From: Geothrix limicola | GTDB taxonomy: Bacteria > Acidobacteriota > Holophagae > Holophagales > Holophagaceae | Assembly: GCF_030268085.1 (NCBI RefSeq) | Contig: NZ_BSDE01000001.1 | Location: forward strand, 62,001-126,000 | Length of the DNA stretch: 64,000 nt | Reading direction: 5' to 3' | In this document: positions 50,273-58,534 of the stretch, piece by piece | Numbering within the stretch: the first letter of the stretch is position 1 | Layout: each line of letters opens with the position of its first letter | Position numbers and translations under genes: made by a program | Notes under the pieces: generated by a model | What the model was told of the DNA's origin: nothing | Database searches by the model: none | What the model saw: the letters and a program-made list of their open reading frames with translations, nothing else

Positions 50273-53101
50273 TTAGGACTTCTGCAGTTCCGCCGCGAAG
50301 GCCTCCAGCGCCCGGTAGTAGGGATCGATGCTGGGGATGTAGTGGCGTTCGCTGGCGGCGTGGGGGCCGATGCCCGTCTGGCCCCAGACCACGGCCTGAC
50401 CGCCCGGCGCGAATCGAGCGGAGGTACCAGCGCCCTTGCGGCCGATGCGCACGTCGCCGCCGGCCGCCGCGATGCCTGCCAGCAGGGCCTTGAGGTAGGG
50501 GTTCTCGGGATCGCAGGCGACGCCGGGTTCCCAGGCGGAGGCGACAAACTCGAGGCTCCGCTCGGCGGCGAGGGCTTCGATGTCGGCGCGCATCTTCGAT
50601 ACGTCATCCTGGGGGATGGGGCGGATCTCCACGCCGAGTGAACCGCGATCCGGCGTGATGTTGTAGACGCCGGGCTTGCCCACCTGGATGTAGGCGAAGC
50701 GGGCCAGGGACTGCCAGCCGCCTTCGGCCTTCAGGGTGAGGTGCCTGGCGAAGAGCTCGCGCAGAGCCTCGCGGGCGCTGAGCAGGCGCTCGGTGAGATC
50801 GGTGCCGCCCACCAGGCCGCTGTGGCCGCGGGTGCCGTGGGCCACGAGCTCGAAGCGCAGCACGCCGCGGTTCTGGGTGCAGACCTCGCCCCAGAGTTCG
50901 GTGCCCTTTTCGCCGGTGCGCTCGCCCGCGATGAAGAAGGAGGGCTCGTAGCCGCCTTCCTCCTTCAGGGCCTTCAGCACGTGGGGCGTACCCATGGGCT
51001 CGAGCTCGCCATTCTCCTCGTTGCCCACCAGCAGCAGGTTCACGGGGGGGTAGGGCGCGCCCTTCTTCAGGGTGTCCTTCATCCACACGAGGTAGGTCGA
51101 GACGACGGTCTTCATGTCCGCGGCGCCGCGACCCCAGAGGTAGTCGCCTTCGATCTTGGGCTCGAACTGGCTGTCGTCGGGCTCGGGCTCCACCACGTCG
51201 AAGTGGCCGCACAGCATCGCCGGGGCGTGCTCACCGCCGGGGAAGTGTGCGAACACGGCGGGGAAGGGGCCGCCGTCGAAGGTGCGCACGGGTACGCCGT
51301 GGTTGCGCAGGTAGTCGTAGACGAAGGTGGCCGCGCGATGCACTTCGGGCACGCGCTCCTCCGGGCAGGCCGTCACGCTGGGGATGCGCACCAGGCGCTG
51401 GGAGAGGTCCAGGACCTCCGAGGTCTTGTCCGGATATTCGGTCTCCACCAGGGCCTCGGGCCGGGGCTGGAAGCGCACGGGAGCCTGGGGATCGAGGTGC
51501 ACCTCGTCGCGGGCGTGCTCGACGAAGTCGCGCAGCTTGCCCTGTTCCCCGCCCAGATCCGTGAGGTGGGCCGTGATGGTCTCCACATCGCCGCGGACTT
51601 GCTCCTTGCGAGCCTCGGCCAGGTCCACCAGCAGGTCGGCGGGCACGATGTCCGAGCTGCCGATCCGCGCCTTCAGGCGCTGCCGGATCTTCTCGGCGGT
51701 GCTGGGGGCGCCTGCGGCCAGGTCGCACAGGGGCTGCAGGTCGTCCCAGAGGCCCAGGGCCTCGGCCATGGGTCGCATCTGCTGGAGTGTCCAGTCCAGG
51801 AAGGCCGAGAGGCTGATGGGCTTGGCCGTGAGGGGATCCTCGATGACGGCCTTCAGGCCCTCCTTGGCGGCCAGGTTCTCATTGCGGCGGGCGCGCTTGA
51901 TGTCCTCAGAGTCGTAGCGGAAGCCGCGGGCGAAGTCGGGATCGCCATAGAAGCGGAGCAGCAGCAGGTGTTTCAGCGTGAGGTTGGCGACATCGAGGCG
52001 CAGGTCGTGGCAGGGGTCGTCCGTGCGCACTTCCACGCGGGCCATGGGCAGGTCGATGCGGGCGAAGAGGTTCTGGCGCTCGATCTGGGCGGCCATGTCC
52101 TCCACGTTGCGCGTCTCGCCGGCGGCGAAGAGGCCGCGGGCGTAGATGTCATGCAGCTGGTCACTGGTGACCTGGATGAGGCGCTCCACGGGCTCGGCCT
52201 GGGAGCGGGCGCGCACGGGGATCCAGTTGTTGTTTCCGAAGCGCACGCCGCTGCGCACCAGCTCGTAGGAGAGGCGCAGATAGTCCGAGTGGCTGCGGTT
52301 GAGATCCGGCACGTCGAGGGCGGGCGGGTTCGGGAAGGTGAGGTTGCGCACCGATTCGTAGGGCGTGAGCCGCACGACGGGCTTGCCGTTCTCTTCCGAG
52401 GCCTGCAGGGGCGTGCTGGCGCTGGTGGCGATGAAGACGGCGGCGAAGGCGCGCATGAGCCGCGTGCCGGTGATGTAGACCTGGTTCTTGTAGTCGTCGA
52501 GGTGCGTGTCGCCGCGCTCGGCGGCGGGCAGGTGCATGAAGTCCCAGGCCAGCATGGGCTCCGGCAGGCTCAGGTTGGAGTGGGTGCCCGCCGTCGCCAG
52601 CTCGGTGCCGTACATGTCCACGCAGCGCTGGAGGTAGCGCCGCTTGGCCAGGTGCCAGGATTCGGGCACGCAGTCGGGACCGATCTTGGGCAGCACGAGG
52701 AGGTTGCCGTGCCAGTAGTGGAGGGGCTCTCCGAAGGCGCGCCCGGCCTTGGCCAGGGCGTTGATGAGCGCGCCCTCCAGCAGGCGTCCCTCGTACACCG
52801 CGCCCTTGGGCGTGTGGTAGGGCTTGGTGACGAATTCGATCATCCAGTGGAAGACTTCCAGCTGGTGGTATTCCTCGGTCCAGGGCGCGAGCACCTTCGA
52901 GCGCAGGTGGTCCACGAATGACATGCGGTCCGGTCCCGTGCCCACGGTGAGCAGAGGACGGAACTGCGGATCCATGAGATTCCACTCCAGCTCCAGGCCG
53001 CAGAGGCCGCCGGAAGGACGGGTCTCCAGCGCGGTCTGGCGGGCCAGTTGGAACTTCTCGACGAAGGCATTCAGGTCGAACACGGGGTACTCCGGATCCA
53101 T
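50273..53101 (-). CDS. Fusion: GCS2-type carboxylate-amine ligase and M20 metallopeptidase
   Basis: A 942-residue protein made of two enzymes. Residues about 1-530 resemble the glutamate-cysteine ligase/carboxylate-amine ligase family: GLCGLELEWNLMDPQFRPL, HWMIEFVTKPYHTPKGAVYEGRL, ATAGTHSNLSLPEPM, and ARVEVRTDDPCHDLRLDV. Residues about 555-942 form an M20 deacylase. CGHFDVVEPEPD has metal ligands His630 and Asp632, RGAADMKT has the bridging Asp, NEENGELEP has the Glu base and a Glu ligand (691-692), and GTSARF...GIGPHAASERHYIP carries the last His. The M20 part is of the ArgE/DapE/LysK kind. The gene follows an aminotransferase after 62 bases. Function is unknown. Confidence 0.85.
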   Translation of the reverse strand: MDPEYPVFDLNAFVEKFQLARQTALETRPSGGLCGLELEWNLMDPQFRPLLTVGTGPDRMSFVDHLRSKVLAPWTEEYHQLEVFHWMIEFVTKPYHTPKGAVYEGRLLEGALINALAKAGRAFGEPLHYWHGNLLVLPKIGPDCVPESWHLAKRRYLQRCVDMYGTELATAGTHSNLSLPEPMLAWDFMHLPAAERGDTHLDDYKNQVYITGTRLMRAFAAVFIATSASTPLQASEENGKPVVRLTPYESVRNLTFPNPPALDVPDLNRSHSDYLRLSYELVRSGVRFGNNNWIPVRARSQAEPVERLIQVTSDQLHDIYARGLFAAGETRNVEDMAAQIERQNLFARIDLPMARVEVRTDDPCHDLRLDVANLTLKHLLLLRFYGDPDFARGFRYDSEDIKRARRNENLAAKEGLKAVIEDPLTAKPISLSAFLDWTLQQMRPMAEALGLWDDLQPLCDLAAGAPSTAEKIRQRLKARIGSSDIVPADLLVDLAEARKEQVRGDVETITAHLTDLGGEQGKLRDFVEHARDEVHLDPQAPVRFQPRPEALVETEYPDKTSEVLDLSQRLVRIPSVTACPEERVPEVHRAATFVYDYLRNHGVPVRTFDGGPFPAVFAHFPGGEHAPAMLCGHFDVVEPEPDDSQFEPKIEGDYLWGRGAADMKTVVSTYLVWMKDTLKKGAPYPPVNLLLVGNEENGELEPMGTPHVLKALKEEGGYEPSFFIAGERTGEKGTELWGEVCTQNRGVLRFELVAHGTRGHSGLVGGTDLTERLLSAREALRELFARHLTLKAEGGWQSLARFAYIQVGKPGVYNITPDRGSLGVEIRPIPQDDVSKMRADIEALAAERSLEFVASAWEPGVACDPENPYLKALLAGIAAAGGDVRIGRKGAGTSARFAPGGQAVVWGQTGIGPHAASERHYIPSIDPYYRALEAFAAELQKS

Positions 53102-54725: not shown

Positions 54726-56039
54726 TTATGGCGCTCCTGCTCCTTTGTCTTTGTGTATGAAAGAGCGGGCACCCGGGCCGGAGTAGTCCTCCACGCGATG
54801 CCCCCGCCCGCGCAGCAGGTAGCGGTAGCTGAGCAGGCCCTCCAATCCCACGGGGCCGCGGGCGTGGATGCGGCCCGTGCTGATGCCCACCTCGGCGCCG
54901 AATCCATAACGGAACCCGTCGGCGAAGCGCGTGGAGGCGTTGTGGAAGACGCCCGCCGCGTCGACCTCGGCGAGGAACCGCGCGGCGACCTCGGCATCCT
55001 CGGTGACGATGGCCTCCGTGTGTCCGCTACCGTGGGCGCGGATGTGGGCGAGGGCTTCGTCCAGATCCGTCACCACCTTGAGGGCGAGGATGGGCGCGCC
55101 GTACTCCGCCTCCCAGTCCGCGTCGGTGGCAGGCAGGAGATCCGGCGCGATCGCTCGGCAGGCCGCGCATCCGCGCAGTTCCACGCCGCGGGGGGCGAGG
55201 TCGGCCACAAGGGCCGGAAGAAGGCGTTCAGCCGCGCCGCGATGAATCAGGACCGTCTCCACCGCGTTGCAGGCTGAGGGATACTGCAGCTTCGCGTCGC
55301 GCACGAGGGCGACGGCCATGGTGGTGTCGGCGGCCTGGTCGAGCACCATGTGGCAGACGCCGTCGGCGTGACCCAGCACGGGGATGCGCGTGGCCGCCTG
55401 GAGGCTCTGCACCAGCTCGCGGGATCCGCGGGGGATCACCAGGTCGATGAGATCGGGGCGCTGCAGAAGCACCGCGACGGCGGCGCGATCGCCGAGGCCC
55501 TGGATCGCCGTTTCGGGCAGATCGGCGTCCCGAAGGGCGGACTGCACGGCCTCCAACAGGATGGCGTTGGAGTGGCGGGCCTCGCTTCCGCCCTTGAGCA
55601 GGGCGGCGTTGCCGCTCTTGAGCGCCAGGGCGCTGATCTGGATGAGGGCGTCGGGCCGCGATTCGAAGACGACGCAGAGCACGCCCAGGGGGCAGGCCAC
55701 CCGGGTGAGTTCGAGGCCCTCGTCCAGATCGCGGCGGAGCTGGATGCGGTGCAGGGGATCGGGCAGCCCCGCCACGGCGCGCACGCCCTGGGCCATGGCG
55801 GCCACTTTGGAGGAGTCGAGCTTGAGCCGCTGCAGGCTGGACGCGTCAATGACGCCTTCGGCCGCCCGGACGTCTTCCGCGTTGGCTTCAAGGATGGCGG
55901 CCTGCCGTTGTTCCAACAGATCCGCCAGGCGAAGCAGCACGCCGGCACGTTGCTCCGAGCTGGTGGTGGCCAGCCGGCGCGAGGCGGTCCGGGCGGCCTC
56001 GGCCTTGGCTTGAATGAGGGAGGGCGATTCCAGGCTCAT
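54726..56039 (-). CDS. proA: Gamma-glutamyl phosphate reductase
   Basis: ProA reduces gamma-glutamyl phosphate to glutamate semialdehyde in proline synthesis. It is 437 residues long with VFESRPDALIQISALALKSGNAALLKGGSEA, VLGHADGVCHMVLD and the catalytic Cys257 in YPSACNAVETVLIH, then FGAEVGISTGRIHARGPVGLEGLLSYRYLLRG. The ATG is two bases after the proB stop (TGA-G-ATG), so the two are a coupled pair. The C-terminus (RGHRVEDYSGPGARSFIHKDKGAGAP) is slightly longer than usual. Confidence 0.96.
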   Translation of the reverse strand: MSLESPSLIQAKAEAARTASRRLATTSSEQRAGVLLRLADLLEQRQAAILEANAEDVRAAEGVIDASSLQRLKLDSSKVAAMAQGVRAVAGLPDPLHRIQLRRDLDEGLELTRVACPLGVLCVVFESRPDALIQISALALKSGNAALLKGGSEARHSNAILLEAVQSALRDADLPETAIQGLGDRAAVAVLLQRPDLIDLVIPRGSRELVQSLQAATRIPVLGHADGVCHMVLDQAADTTMAVALVRDAKLQYPSACNAVETVLIHRGAAERLLPALVADLAPRGVELRGCAACRAIAPDLLPATDADWEAEYGAPILALKVVTDLDEALAHIRAHGSGHTEAIVTEDAEVAARFLAEVDAAGVFHNASTRFADGFRYGFGAEVGISTGRIHARGPVGLEGLLSYRYLLRGRGHRVEDYSGPGARSFIHKDKGAGAP

Positions 56040-56040
56040 C

Positions 56041-56892
56041 TCAGGCTCCCTTTGGTGCGGCGAGGAAGTGGGTGCCCACGGGCTCACCGGCGAGGATCTG
56101 ATCGAGGATGCGAGGCACGAGTCCCGAGGCCAGCACCACGGGCACACCCGCCCGCGCGGCCACGCGGGCCGCCTCCACCTTGCTGACCATGCCGCCGCGG
56201 CCGCGTTCCGAGGTGCCTTCGAGGTTCACCTGCAGGTCGGCGCCGAAGGCCACTTCGGCCAGGGGCGTCGCTTCGGGATCCAGGCCCGGGTTGCCCGTGT
56301 GCAGGGCGCTCACGTCGGAGAGCAGCACGAGCAGGTCGGCCTCCAGATGCGCGGCGACGAGGGCCGACAGATGATCGTTGTCGCTGAAGATCGGCGTGCG
56401 GCCCGGGGAGGGACGTTCGAGCTCCAGCGTGGAGACCGTGTCGTTCTCGTTGAGCACGGGGATGGCACCCAGTTCCAGCAGGGTGTCCAGCGTGTGACGG
56501 AGGTTGGCATGGCGCAGGGGATCGGCGAAGTCGTCCTCTGTGAGCAGCACCTGGGCGGCGCAGAGGCCCATGCGGGCGAAGCCCTCCTGGTAGATGGACA
56601 TGAGCTTGCCCTGGCCGACGGCCGCGCAGGCCTGCTTTTGCGCCATGCCCCCGGGCTTCACGCCGAGCTGGCGGGCGCCGAGACCCACCGCGCCCGAGGA
56701 CACGAGCACGGGCTGGGTGCCCCGGCGGCGCAGCTCGGCCACGGTCTCCATGAGGCCGTAGAGACGGCTGAGGACGGGCTGGCCTTCGGCATCCAACACC
56801 ACCTGGGTGCCGAGCTTGACGACGATGCGTCGGGCGCCGTGGAAGGCCATCCGGTGCGCGGAGGCGTGAGTTCGGTCGAGAGCTTGATGCAT
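56041..56892 (-). CDS. proB: Glutamate 5-kinase, short form without PUA domain
   Basis: ProB phosphorylates glutamate, the first and feedback-regulated step of proline synthesis. The amino acid kinase fold is complete: IVVKLGTQVV at the N-terminus, PVLVSSGAVGLGARQLG, PVLNENDTVS, FSDNDHLSALVAAHL, LVLLSDVSALHTGNP, and GTSERGRGGMVSKVEAARVAARAGVPVVLASG. At 283 residues it ends before the PUA domain found in the 367-residue E. coli enzyme. The ATG at 56892 lies 20 bases after a terminator hairpin and a proline-rich leader peptide. Confidence 0.95.
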   Translation of the reverse strand: MHQALDRTHASAHRMAFHGARRIVVKLGTQVVLDAEGQPVLSRLYGLMETVAELRRRGTQPVLVSSGAVGLGARQLGVKPGGMAQKQACAAVGQGKLMSIYQEGFARMGLCAAQVLLTEDDFADPLRHANLRHTLDTLLELGAIPVLNENDTVSTLELERPSPGRTPIFSDNDHLSALVAAHLEADLLVLLSDVSALHTGNPGLDPEATPLAEVAFGADLQVNLEGTSERGRGGMVSKVEAARVAARAGVPVVLASGLVPRILDQILAGEPVGTHFLAAPKGA

Positions 56893-56912
56893 GGATGCCT
56901 GCCAAAAGAAAA

Positions 56913-56941
56913 ACCCCCGGGTCGGTGGCGACTCCGGGGGT
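56913..56941 (-). terminator. Intrinsic terminator in the proB leader (attenuator)
   Basis: Read on the minus strand, ACCCCCGG and CCGGGGGT pair into an eight-base-pair stem with a 13-base loop. It is followed by TTTTTCTTTT, a textbook intrinsic terminator. It lies about 20 bases before the proB start and after the proline-rich leader frame, so most transcripts that stop here would never reach proBA. Confidence 0.85.
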
Positions 56942-56949
56942 GGATGTGA

Positions 56950-56975
56950 GCTGAGCGATGCGACGACTGGCTCAG
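56950..56975 (-). promoter_or_regulatory. Second hairpin of the proB leader
   Basis: On the minus strand CTGAGC and GCTCAG form a six-base-pair stem (loop 13 bases) between the leader stop codon and the terminator. A first, stronger hairpin (CCTCC...GGAGG around 56978-57001) lies inside the end of the leader frame. Both could exchange with the terminator; CTCCGG at 56994-56999 is the exact complement of CCGGAG in the terminator's 5' arm. Confidence 0.5.
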
Positions 56976-57040
56976 ACCCCTCCTACCGGCTCACCGGAGG
57001 TGGGCTGGCTAGGGCGCGGGTTGAAGGTCGGCTGATACAT
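56972..57040 (-). CDS. Proline-rich leader peptide of proBA
   Basis: A 22-residue open frame that starts at the second of two adjacent ATGs (57043 or 57040; GAGG five bases before the latter) and ends in TGA before the hairpins. Prolines are at residues 4, 8, 10, 13 and 18, i.e. five of 22, encoded by CCG, CCG, CCT, CCC and CCG. It is the only gene-like feature between the decarboxylase and proB. The arrangement matches ribosome-mediated attenuation as known for his, trp or leu operons, here for proline. Confidence 0.6.
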   Translation of the reverse strand: MYQPTFNPRPSQPTSGEPVGGV

Positions 57041-57118
57041 CATGTCCTCACAAGTGTGCCGCCCCGGGGCGCCGGATACAACGGGCAAAGCCATACTGAT
57101 TTTTTATGGATTCATTTG

Positions 57119-58534
57119 TCAGACGGCTTCGGAAGCCTGCTTCAGTGCAGCCCACAGGGCCTCGACATGCCTGCGCTCCGTGGCTTCGGCGCCGATGCTC
57201 ACCCGCAGCATCTGCTTGCCCTTGAGCAGGGAGGGCGTCAGATAGGCCTTGCCGCCTTCGTTGATGCGGCGCGCGATCTCCAGGTTGTGGGCGGCGAGGG
57301 CGGCCTCGTCGAGGCCGGGCCGCAGGTGGCGGATGCACACGGTCTGCAGGGGCACGGGGGCGAGGCGCTCCCAGTCGGCGACGGCGTCCACCTGCTGCAT
57401 CAGCCACTGGGCGTTCTCGAGGTCACGGCGCAGGCGGGTCTGCAGCCCCTCCACGCCCACGTCCATGAGGTAGAACCAGAGCTTGAGGGCGCGGAAGCGG
57501 CGGCCCAGCTGGATGTGCCAATCGCGGAAGTTGCTCACCTGGCCGTCCTGCGCCGTGCGCAGGTAGCTGGGGTTGGTGCTCATGACGCGGATGAGGTGCT
57601 GGGGATCGCGCACGTAGTAGGCGCTGAGATCGAAGCCGACGCCCATCCATTTGTGGGGGTTGAACACGAGGCTGTCGGCGCGCTCCACGCCCGCCCACAT
57701 CCCGCGGCATTCGGGCAGCACCATGGCCGTGCCCGCCATGGCGGCGTCCACGTGGAGCCACATGCCGTGCTGCTCCGCCAGGTCCGCCATGGCGGCGACG
57801 GAATCGATGGAGGTCGTGCCCGTGGTGCCCACACAGGCCACCAGCGCGCAGGGGCGGAGGCCGATCTCCAGGTCCTTCTCGATGGCCTCCTGCAGAAGGT
57901 CGAGGCGGATGGCGTGGTTGTCGTCGGTGGGGATGAGGCGCAGGAAACTGCGGCCGAAGCCCGCCAGCAGCGCGGCCTTTTCGATGGAGCTGTGGCCCTG
58001 GTCCGAGGCGTAGACCACCAGGGGCGCCTCGCCGCTCTGGAGGCCTTCCTCGTTCTGGGCGTAGTCCGAGCCCTTCTCGCGGGCGCAGAGCAGGGCCGTG
58101 AAGGTGGCCGTGCTGGCCGTGTCATGGATGACGCCGGTGAAGGCCGGGCTCAGGCCCACCATCTGGCGCAGCCAGTCCATGACCACTTCTTCGACCTCGG
58201 TGGCCGCGGGGCTCGTCTGCCAGCTCATGCCCTGGGCGCCGATGCCCGAGGCGGCCAGGTCGCCGAGGATGGAGGCGTAGCTCGTGTTGCTGGGGAAGTA
58301 GGCGAAGAAGGAGGGGTGGTTCCAGTGGGTGATGCCCGGCATGACGTCGCGGTCGAGGGCCGCCAGGGCCTGATCCATGCGGCCCCCGTGCAGGGGCGGA
58401 TGATCCGGGAAGGCTGCGCGAACCTCGCCGGGCTTGGCCGGGCTCATGACGGGCAGGCGCTCCAACCCTTCGCGGTACTCCGCGATCCAATCCACGAGCT
58501 GGTAGCCGAGGCGACGGAATTCTTGGGCGTCCAT
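57119..58534 (-). CDS. Aromatic-L-amino-acid decarboxylase family PLP enzyme
   Basis: A 471-residue group II PLP decarboxylase. HWNHPSFFAYFPSNTSYASILGDLAASGIGAQGMSWQTSPAATEVE is the family N-terminal block; His181 stacks on PLP; VDAAMAG (Asp263) and NPHKW (Schiff-base Lys295) are the PLP site. The C-terminal half has LRTAQDGQVSNFRDWHIQLGRRFRALKLWF, the conserved arginine-rich helix. It is closest to enzymes that decarboxylate Tyr, Trp, Phe or dopa, but the natural substrate cannot be read off. It is 226 bases upstream of proB on the same strand, with the proB leader in between. Confidence 0.9.
   Translation of the reverse strand: MDAQEFRRLGYQLVDWIAEYREGLERLPVMSPAKPGEVRAAFPDHPPLHGGRMDQALAALDRDVMPGITHWNHPSFFAYFPSNTSYASILGDLAASGIGAQGMSWQTSPAATEVEEVVMDWLRQMVGLSPAFTGVIHDTASTATFTALLCAREKGSDYAQNEEGLQSGEAPLVVYASDQGHSSIEKAALLAGFGRSFLRLIPTDDNHAIRLDLLQEAIEKDLEIGLRPCALVACVGTTGTTSIDSVAAMADLAEQHGMWLHVDAAMAGTAMVLPECRGMWAGVERADSLVFNPHKWMGVGFDLSAYYVRDPQHLIRVMSTNPSYLRTAQDGQVSNFRDWHIQLGRRFRALKLWFYLMDVGVEGLQTRLRRDLENAQWLMQQVDAVADWERLAPVPLQTVCIRHLRPGLDEAALAAHNLEIARRINEGGKAYLTPSLLKGKQMLRVSIGAEATERRHVEALWAALKQASEAV

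Follow-up and report, generated by a model that had tools for sequence, protein, structure and literature searches.

A proline-codon leader before proBA in Geothrix limicola as a well-supported candidate for a conserved proline attenuator

Proline biosynthesis in Geothrix limicola is very probably controlled by a ribosome-mediated transcription attenuator, which senses charged tRNA-Pro and acts on the proBA genes. The presence of a proline-codon leader and a terminator before proBA is confirmed as a real and conserved feature, and the proB leader represents a well-supported candidate for a genuine, conserved proline attenuator, one among several cognate-codon leaders of this genome. The frame, its Pro codons, the terminator and the promoter spacing are conserved, the same design is found at proC, and sister leaders carry codons cognate to their own downstream genes. 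Translation of the leader by a ribosome, its stalling and a response to proline would complete the mechanism.

The locus lies on the minus strand of the window, i.e., the whole 64,000-nt stretch of DNA analysed (contig NZ_BSDE01000001.1, positions 62,001 to 126,000). A PLP decarboxylase-like gene on this strand ends at 57119 and is followed by a promoter-like TTGTAT-17 nt-CACACT sequence, the leader, the terminator, proB and proA. The features, in window coordinates, are:

57076..57081, minus strand: -35 element TTGTAT (TTG-type -35 in 21 of 22 genus loci)
57053..57058, minus strand: -10 element CACACT, with 9 nt between its end and the leader ATG
56972..57043, minus strand: leader ORF MMYQPTFNPRPSQPTSGEPVGGV, stop TGA (22-23 codons in 22/22 loci)
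56970..56989, minus strand: predicted antiterminator 5' half, formed by the leader ORF end and stop codon (per-sequence folds)
56934..56951, minus strand: predicted antiterminator 3' half, formed by GCTCA and the 5' arm of the terminator (per-sequence folds)
56904..56941, minus strand: intrinsic terminator, stem-loop 56941-56913, T-run 56913-56904 (TTTTTCTTTT)
56041..56892, minus strand: proB, glutamate 5-kinase, 283 aa (NCBIfam TIGR01027, E 5.1e-76)
54726..56039, minus strand: proA, glutamate-5-semialdehyde dehydrogenase (NCBIfam NF001221; start codon chosen in this analysis)

A previous reading of this DNA from sequence only had described a 22-23-codon frame with two ATGs and five Pro codons, together with a strong intrinsic terminator with an 8-bp stem right before proB, and both are present. 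The first ATG occupies 57043-57041, the second 57040-57038 and the TGA 56974-56972, which gives 23 codons from the first ATG. Pro codons stand at positions 5, 9, 11, 14 and 19; codons 9, 11 and 14 (also 5 and 19) are the candidate regulatory codons. The terminator combines an outer stem of 8 bp with an inner stem of 4 bp and a 1-nt bulge, and its hairpin is calculated by folding at -22.8 kcal/mol. The proB ATG, at 56892, lies 21 nt past the last stem G. The fold of the 181-nt leader has a z of -1.72, with 9 of 200 shuffles equally good. A simple consensus scan for terminators and promoters returned neither of the two window elements and was therefore not used as evidence. The evidence from the window by itself is modest, and it is conservation that lifts the leader above chance.

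The first search covered 60 genomes, including 37 of the window's genus (its own genome counted). ProB was found in 27 of them, 22 of which belong to the genus, and a leader ORF with a terminator precedes proB in all 22 genus loci. The length of the frame varies by one whole codon only, and the stop is TGA in 20 loci and TAG in two. Pro occupies codon 11 in 22 leaders, codon 9 in 21 and codon 14 in 16; codon 14 is thus not Pro in six leaders, and four leaders hold just three Pro altogether. The Pro codons are mostly interspersed rather than in a run, with PPP in 5 of 22. In a search of the family Holophagaceae, ProB was detected in 35 of 77 genomes (the proB locus of G071 being cut by a contig end), with the leader directly 5' of proB in 27 and 5' of a proC-proB pair in four more. 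The former are 26 genus members (the 22 first loci and L130-L133) and G088 from another genus (L136), while in G073, G074, G089 and G093 proC and proB are adjacent and the leader lies 5' of proC (two by rule, two by eye). G005 has a leader at a contig edge, with proB out of reach (L137). ProB genomes without the switch are G075 and G082, which show none, and G092, where a Pro-rich ORF (MLNLRPIPRPPFRPTGA, L134) stands 5' of proB with no recognised intrinsic terminator; perhaps another control mode operates there.

The first listing of proB leaders demanded Pro at residues 8-16, and one frame (L018) was set by hand. A rule that took no account of amino acid content recovered the same ORF in 23 of 31 proB regions. 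Among its eight failures, L134, L135 and L138 have no such switch; in the other five (L001, L003, L007, L010, L132) the leader is present and the hairpin or T-run falls outside the rule limits. The window's own locus is one of these five, as a bulge-free hairpin rule overlooks its terminator. Beyond the family, four f3 loci in the right orientation (L024 left out) showed no such leader by eye, and when 16 genomes from families f2 and f3 were searched, the leader model R1 gave two weak matches, both in one genome (best E 0.0135). A scan of the window's genome with the motif CCNCGCCCTAGCCA gave one other match (L029), where no leader was recognised by eye. As a separate observation, proB and proA are fused in frame in 5 of the 22 loci (L018-L022), resembling a bifunctional P5CS-like enzyme; ProA aligns from residue 298-301 of a 726-728-aa ORF, and L020 is cut by a contig end.

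The second gene of proline synthesis with this design is proC (pyrroline-5-carboxylate reductase). The next-best R1 matches stand 5' of proC, also in the window's own genome, whose proC leader (L060/L141) is MIRFSAVHPRPSTLRAGGSCSR. Of the 77 family genomes, 57 have a ProC match, and 56 upstream regions were examined, a set that omits the partial ProC of G082 and second partial matches of G022 and G011. The blind rule used here required a terminator at ≤75 nt, an ATG soon after a -10-like hexamer and a 15-35-codon ORF ending before the terminator. A Pro leader lies 5' of proC in 34 of the 56 regions: 32 pass this rule, and L076 and L121, whose layout agrees and whose -10 escaped the rule, were added by eye. 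In the remaining regions, 21 have no terminator by the rule, and one has a 5-bp hairpin and no leader. TAnnnT hexamers stand a few nt 5' of the proC leader ATGs. Together, the distinct proline leaders (n=59) hold at least two Pro each, with a mean of 4.07, and some proC leaders hold two. Six genus members of 87-100% completeness (G001, G002, G019, G028, G033, G070) keep proC and lack a ProB match; a Pro leader is present in five of the six.

Other R1 matches stand before genes for different amino acids, and their leaders change accordingly in composition. Phe-rich leaders (FFAFSFR) precede chorismate mutase/prephenate dehydratase, Asn-rich ones (NRNFNN, QNNRNN) asparagine synthases B and A, and Tyr/aromatic/His-rich ones (HHHYY, NHYW, FYYF) DAHP synthases. 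Similarly, HHHH leaders with adjacent double matches precede hisG, and AIAII precedes an ilvA-like gene. Across 103 distinct leader peptides, 405 cognate residues were counted, vs 224 (sd 13.9, max 279) after shuffling of the gene labels; the frame was chosen by eye where there were several, and L065, L079, L176, L179, L183, L192 and L194 were left out. The window's genome contains five cognate leaders, namely those of proB, proC (L141), pheA, asnB and DAHP synthase (HHHYY), so that four sister loci (L141, L142, L143, L145) exist besides proB. At the lower end of R1 scores in this genome the separation is less clean, with asnB at E 0.009, a terminator-only match (L144) at 0.023 and DAHP synthase at 0.030. 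In another genus, the hisG leaders MTTFTFHHHHAHPPPPG and MNIFAALHHHTHPPPSG (L174, L175, L193) have two adjacent matches each and may be tandem attenuators.

The sister leaders bear directly on the strongest alternative, in which a nascent PRPS or PPPS peptide would itself arrest the ribosome, and the switch would sense EF-P activity or a small molecule instead of tRNA-Pro charging. The PPP found in five proB leaders fits this idea, and so does RPS[HQ], which is nearly as conserved as Pro, at the nucleotide level too: within CGC CCT AGC (codons 10-12, window 57008-57016), CGC is kept in 14, CCT in 18 and AGC in 17 of the 22 proB leaders, and this conservation extends to many proC leaders. Codon sensing alone is insufficient to explain it. 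However, proC leader peptides diverge (HPRPSTLRAGG, MSFHPGLPPQPGTPG, HPGLPPQPGTPG, PNPNPG, APSPCPLPRT) while the Pro codons stay, and an arrest peptide would not predict that sister leaders swap Pro for Phe, Asn or Tyr/His before matching genes. An arrest-peptide or EF-P switch is therefore improbable, and sensing of tRNA-Pro charging is the preferred explanation. The choice of codons may also matter for such sensing. The leader Pro codons (n=103) are CCT 36, CCG 45, CCC 21 and CCA 1, vs CCT 6, CCG 41, CCC 159 and CCA 4 in eight window ORFs (n=210); the leaders thus favour CCT and CCG, and rare codons might sharpen the response.

According to the attenuation model, when proline is ample the ribosome would pass the Pro codons toward the stop and cover the ORF end. 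The terminator (56941-56913) would then form, and RNA polymerase would halt before proB. Under a shortage of charged tRNA-Pro, the ribosome would pause as Pro codon 9, 11 or 14 occupies its A site. The free ORF end could then pair with GCTCA...CCCCCGG, which would block the terminator and allow transcription of proBA.

Terminator hairpins occur in all 22 genus loci, and their predicted energies range between -14.7 and -26.8 kcal/mol. The core keeps five invariant C-G pairs, and one pair is G-C in 12 loci and A-U in 10. For the antiterminator, a pairing of CTCCGG with CCGGAG had been suggested in the sequence-only reading. Both parts exist in the window, but they occur together in just 1 of 22 loci, and for this reason that pairing was dropped. 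A different putative antiterminator is common to the loci, in which CCGG..GG..GGGT.TGAGC is predicted to pair with GCTCA.ATCC..CCCCGG; its paired cells amount to 72.8%, vs 36-49% when the halves are slid. The alignment of relatives, which had been proposed as a check, revealed conserved Pro codons and a conserved terminator, whereas covariation in the shared antiterminator across the 22 loci was not above that of shuffles.

The coupling of ribosome position to folding was modelled with RNA free from 15 nt past the first P-site base, without pairing upstream, and with the P site stepped by codon. In most loci, the 5' arm of the terminator is predicted to pair with the ORF end as long as the P site is at or before codon 14, and to be largely free after codon 15-18. 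For the window leader, the antiterminator 3' half is sequestered at about 0.7 with P-site codons 8-14. The stalled-minus-passed difference averages 0.565 over the 22 proB loci, and 100 shuffled sets give 0.111 (sd 0.056, max 0.348). Taken singly, 10 of the 22 loci have ≤5% of shuffles as good, seven have 6-15%, and L006, L009, L013, L015 and L020 have 17-22%. Similarly, 31 distinct proC leaders give 0.542, and 60 shuffled sets give 0.135 (sd 0.041, max 0.220); for five of these leaders, 17-48% of the shuffles do equally well. In this model the regulatory codons sit where stalling would free the antiterminator and passing would not, which is strong for the sets and weaker for single loci, and the switch point is predicted just after about codon 14 in most of the 22 loci.

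A structured RNA that senses uncharged tRNA-Pro or proline directly, with an incidental ORF, would equally place a terminator with an alternative pairing 5' of a biosynthetic operon. In Firmicutes, T-box riboswitches on proBA and proI couple tRNA-Pro charging to proline-synthesis genes through a terminator. The proB leader resembles these in its proposed terminator-based control of proBA, and differs in that its proposed sensing is by translation and a T-box match is absent. Such a riboswitch is very unlikely here, since a search of window 56000-58000 against Rfam, T-box included, was empty at E <= 1, folding the 22 leaders to a consensus leaves the 8-bp terminator alone, and the ORF length shifts by whole codons only.

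The predicted promoter, too, is conserved in its position. In 22/22 loci, exactly 9 nt separate the leader ATG from the end of a -10 box (CACACT, CAGACT or CACAAT), and the -35/-10 spacer is 17 nt in 14 loci and 18 in seven, the -35 being absent in L003. Just as remote is the idea that the hairpin simply terminates the decarboxylase gene on its upstream side, proB being read from its own downstream promoter and the ORF fortuitous: it does sit between two same-strand genes, with that decarboxylase upstream in 13 of 22 loci, but the fixed -10 spacing, a T-run-proB gap of only 11 nt and the conserved ORF length and Pro codons speak against it, and in nine loci no such gene was found upstream. Where the upstream gene is a different one, the leader still accompanies proB.

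Transcription usually starts 6-8 nt past a -10 box. The position of the promoter thus implies a 5' UTR that is probably 0-4 nt long, and with such a start the leader peptide would be translated from an almost leaderless message. Of the 22 leaders, two have an SD-like motif, each at 2 nt from the ATG, vs 7 of 22 proB genes (3 vs 14 with CAGG included). The ribosome site GAGG suggested previously does exist in the window, ending 2 nt before the ATG, but with such motifs in only two of the 22 loci it is not a general feature of these leaders.

The earlier interpretation of the locus as a proline attenuator is supported in its core, as judged by comparison of sequences: frame, Pro codons and terminator are kept in 22/22 loci, a Pro leader recurs at proC, and the sister leaders are cognate. 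The proposed mechanism is known in kind. As described in part in PMC1262725 and PMC2965389, and otherwise as generally known, the trp, his, phe, leu, ilv and thr attenuators share with the proB leader a short cognate-codon ORF 5' of the biosynthetic operon of the amino acid sensed; they also have an antiterminator and a terminator that exclude each other, as is predicted for the proB leader. The proB leader differs from them in its predicted sensing of proline, in its mostly interspersed Pro codons and in a start predicted to be probably near-leaderless, without a Shine-Dalgarno sequence.

Proline codons have been described in another regulatory context. According to PMC3641672, the leader ORFs of Salmonella mgtP (mgtCBR) and mgtA are rich in Pro codons, and low charged tRNA-Pro increases downstream transcription. 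These leaders resemble the proB leader as proline-codon-rich ORFs read under low charged tRNA-Pro, whereas their targets are Mg2+ transport and virulence genes instead of proline synthesis (PMC3641672). A further difference from the proB leader is that mgtP combines an SD-like sequence with a run of three Pro codons. A further parallel is offered by the mycobacterial leaderless polycysteine attenuators (Canestrari et al. 2020, as cited in PMC9031893): there too, a short ORF carries codons that match the amino acid of the operon behind it, and this ORF is leaderless, as the proB leader probably nearly is. In contrast to the mostly interspersed Pro codons of the proB leader, their cysteine codons are contiguous; a conserved terminator-like hairpin is absent from mycobacterial cys leaders according to PMC1262725, while the proB leader has a strong intrinsic terminator.

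The statement that no proline attenuator of this kind is established needs qualification for proline codons, since the mgtP and mgtA leader ORFs use them (PMC3641672). A literature search over titles and abstract openings of open-licence papers found no proline-biosynthesis attenuator among the papers listed, and a search of titles and abstract openings found no attenuator of proline synthesis in Acidobacteria or Geothrix among those listed. The word 'proline' is absent from PMC1262725, and in PMC8632094 it appears three times, one of them in a passage on proline betaine. The claim of novelty is limited to this open-licence literature, which does not include the survey of Lopatovskaya et al. 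2010 (cited in PMC4833913). Within it, the candidate novelties would be proline as the amino acid, Acidobacteriota as the phylum, the recoded cassettes and a layout that is probably near-leaderless. Proline is missing among the biosynthetic pathways under leader-peptide attenuation in the papers listed by the searches, and cognate-codon attenuators would be extended to Acidobacteriota. The proBA case offers a directly testable attenuator model in Geothrix.

The relatedness of the five leaders in the window's genome suggests how the family of switches may have arisen. The proB and pheA leaders resemble each other in the segment that follows the sensor codons (score 40, null 15.7 sd 2.8), and a like segment links the asnB and DAHP synthase leaders (score 76, null 17.7 sd 3.4). 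The proB and proC leaders are alike in the sensor part CCGCGCCCTAGC (score 30, null 16.4 sd 3.1, best of 300 shuffles 32). No outstanding similarity of ORF parts was found in the remaining seven pairs. Shared segments with differing sensor codons point to duplication and exchange of sensor codons. A broader proposal, which may equally well hold or fail, is that Holophagaceae use near-leaderless, modular attenuator cassettes for amino acid synthesis, duplicated and retargeted by sensor-codon swaps (proB/pheA body, asnB/DAHP synthase body, proB/proC Pro sensor), with the proline switch as the first attenuator of proline synthesis. Sister switches in one genome, with differing sensor codons and a similar body, would represent a natural experiment on the gain of specificity.

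Outside Holophagaceae, R1 matches at E <= 0.001 were weak and came from 13 of the 247 genomes of the phylum, and four of the five outside-family loci that were read show no leader. One locus in another Acidobacteriota family (L238) carries, by eye, a Leu/Ile/Val-rich leader ending SLFLIVLVLVIGPPGVG, then a terminator-like hairpin and an ilvD-like gene. Elsewhere in the window, a 942-aa ORF (50273-53101, minus strand) may be a fusion; its first 550 residues are uncovered among the 25 of 28 NCBIfam matches listed, and M20-family deacylase models align to about residues 555-930, in its C-terminal part.
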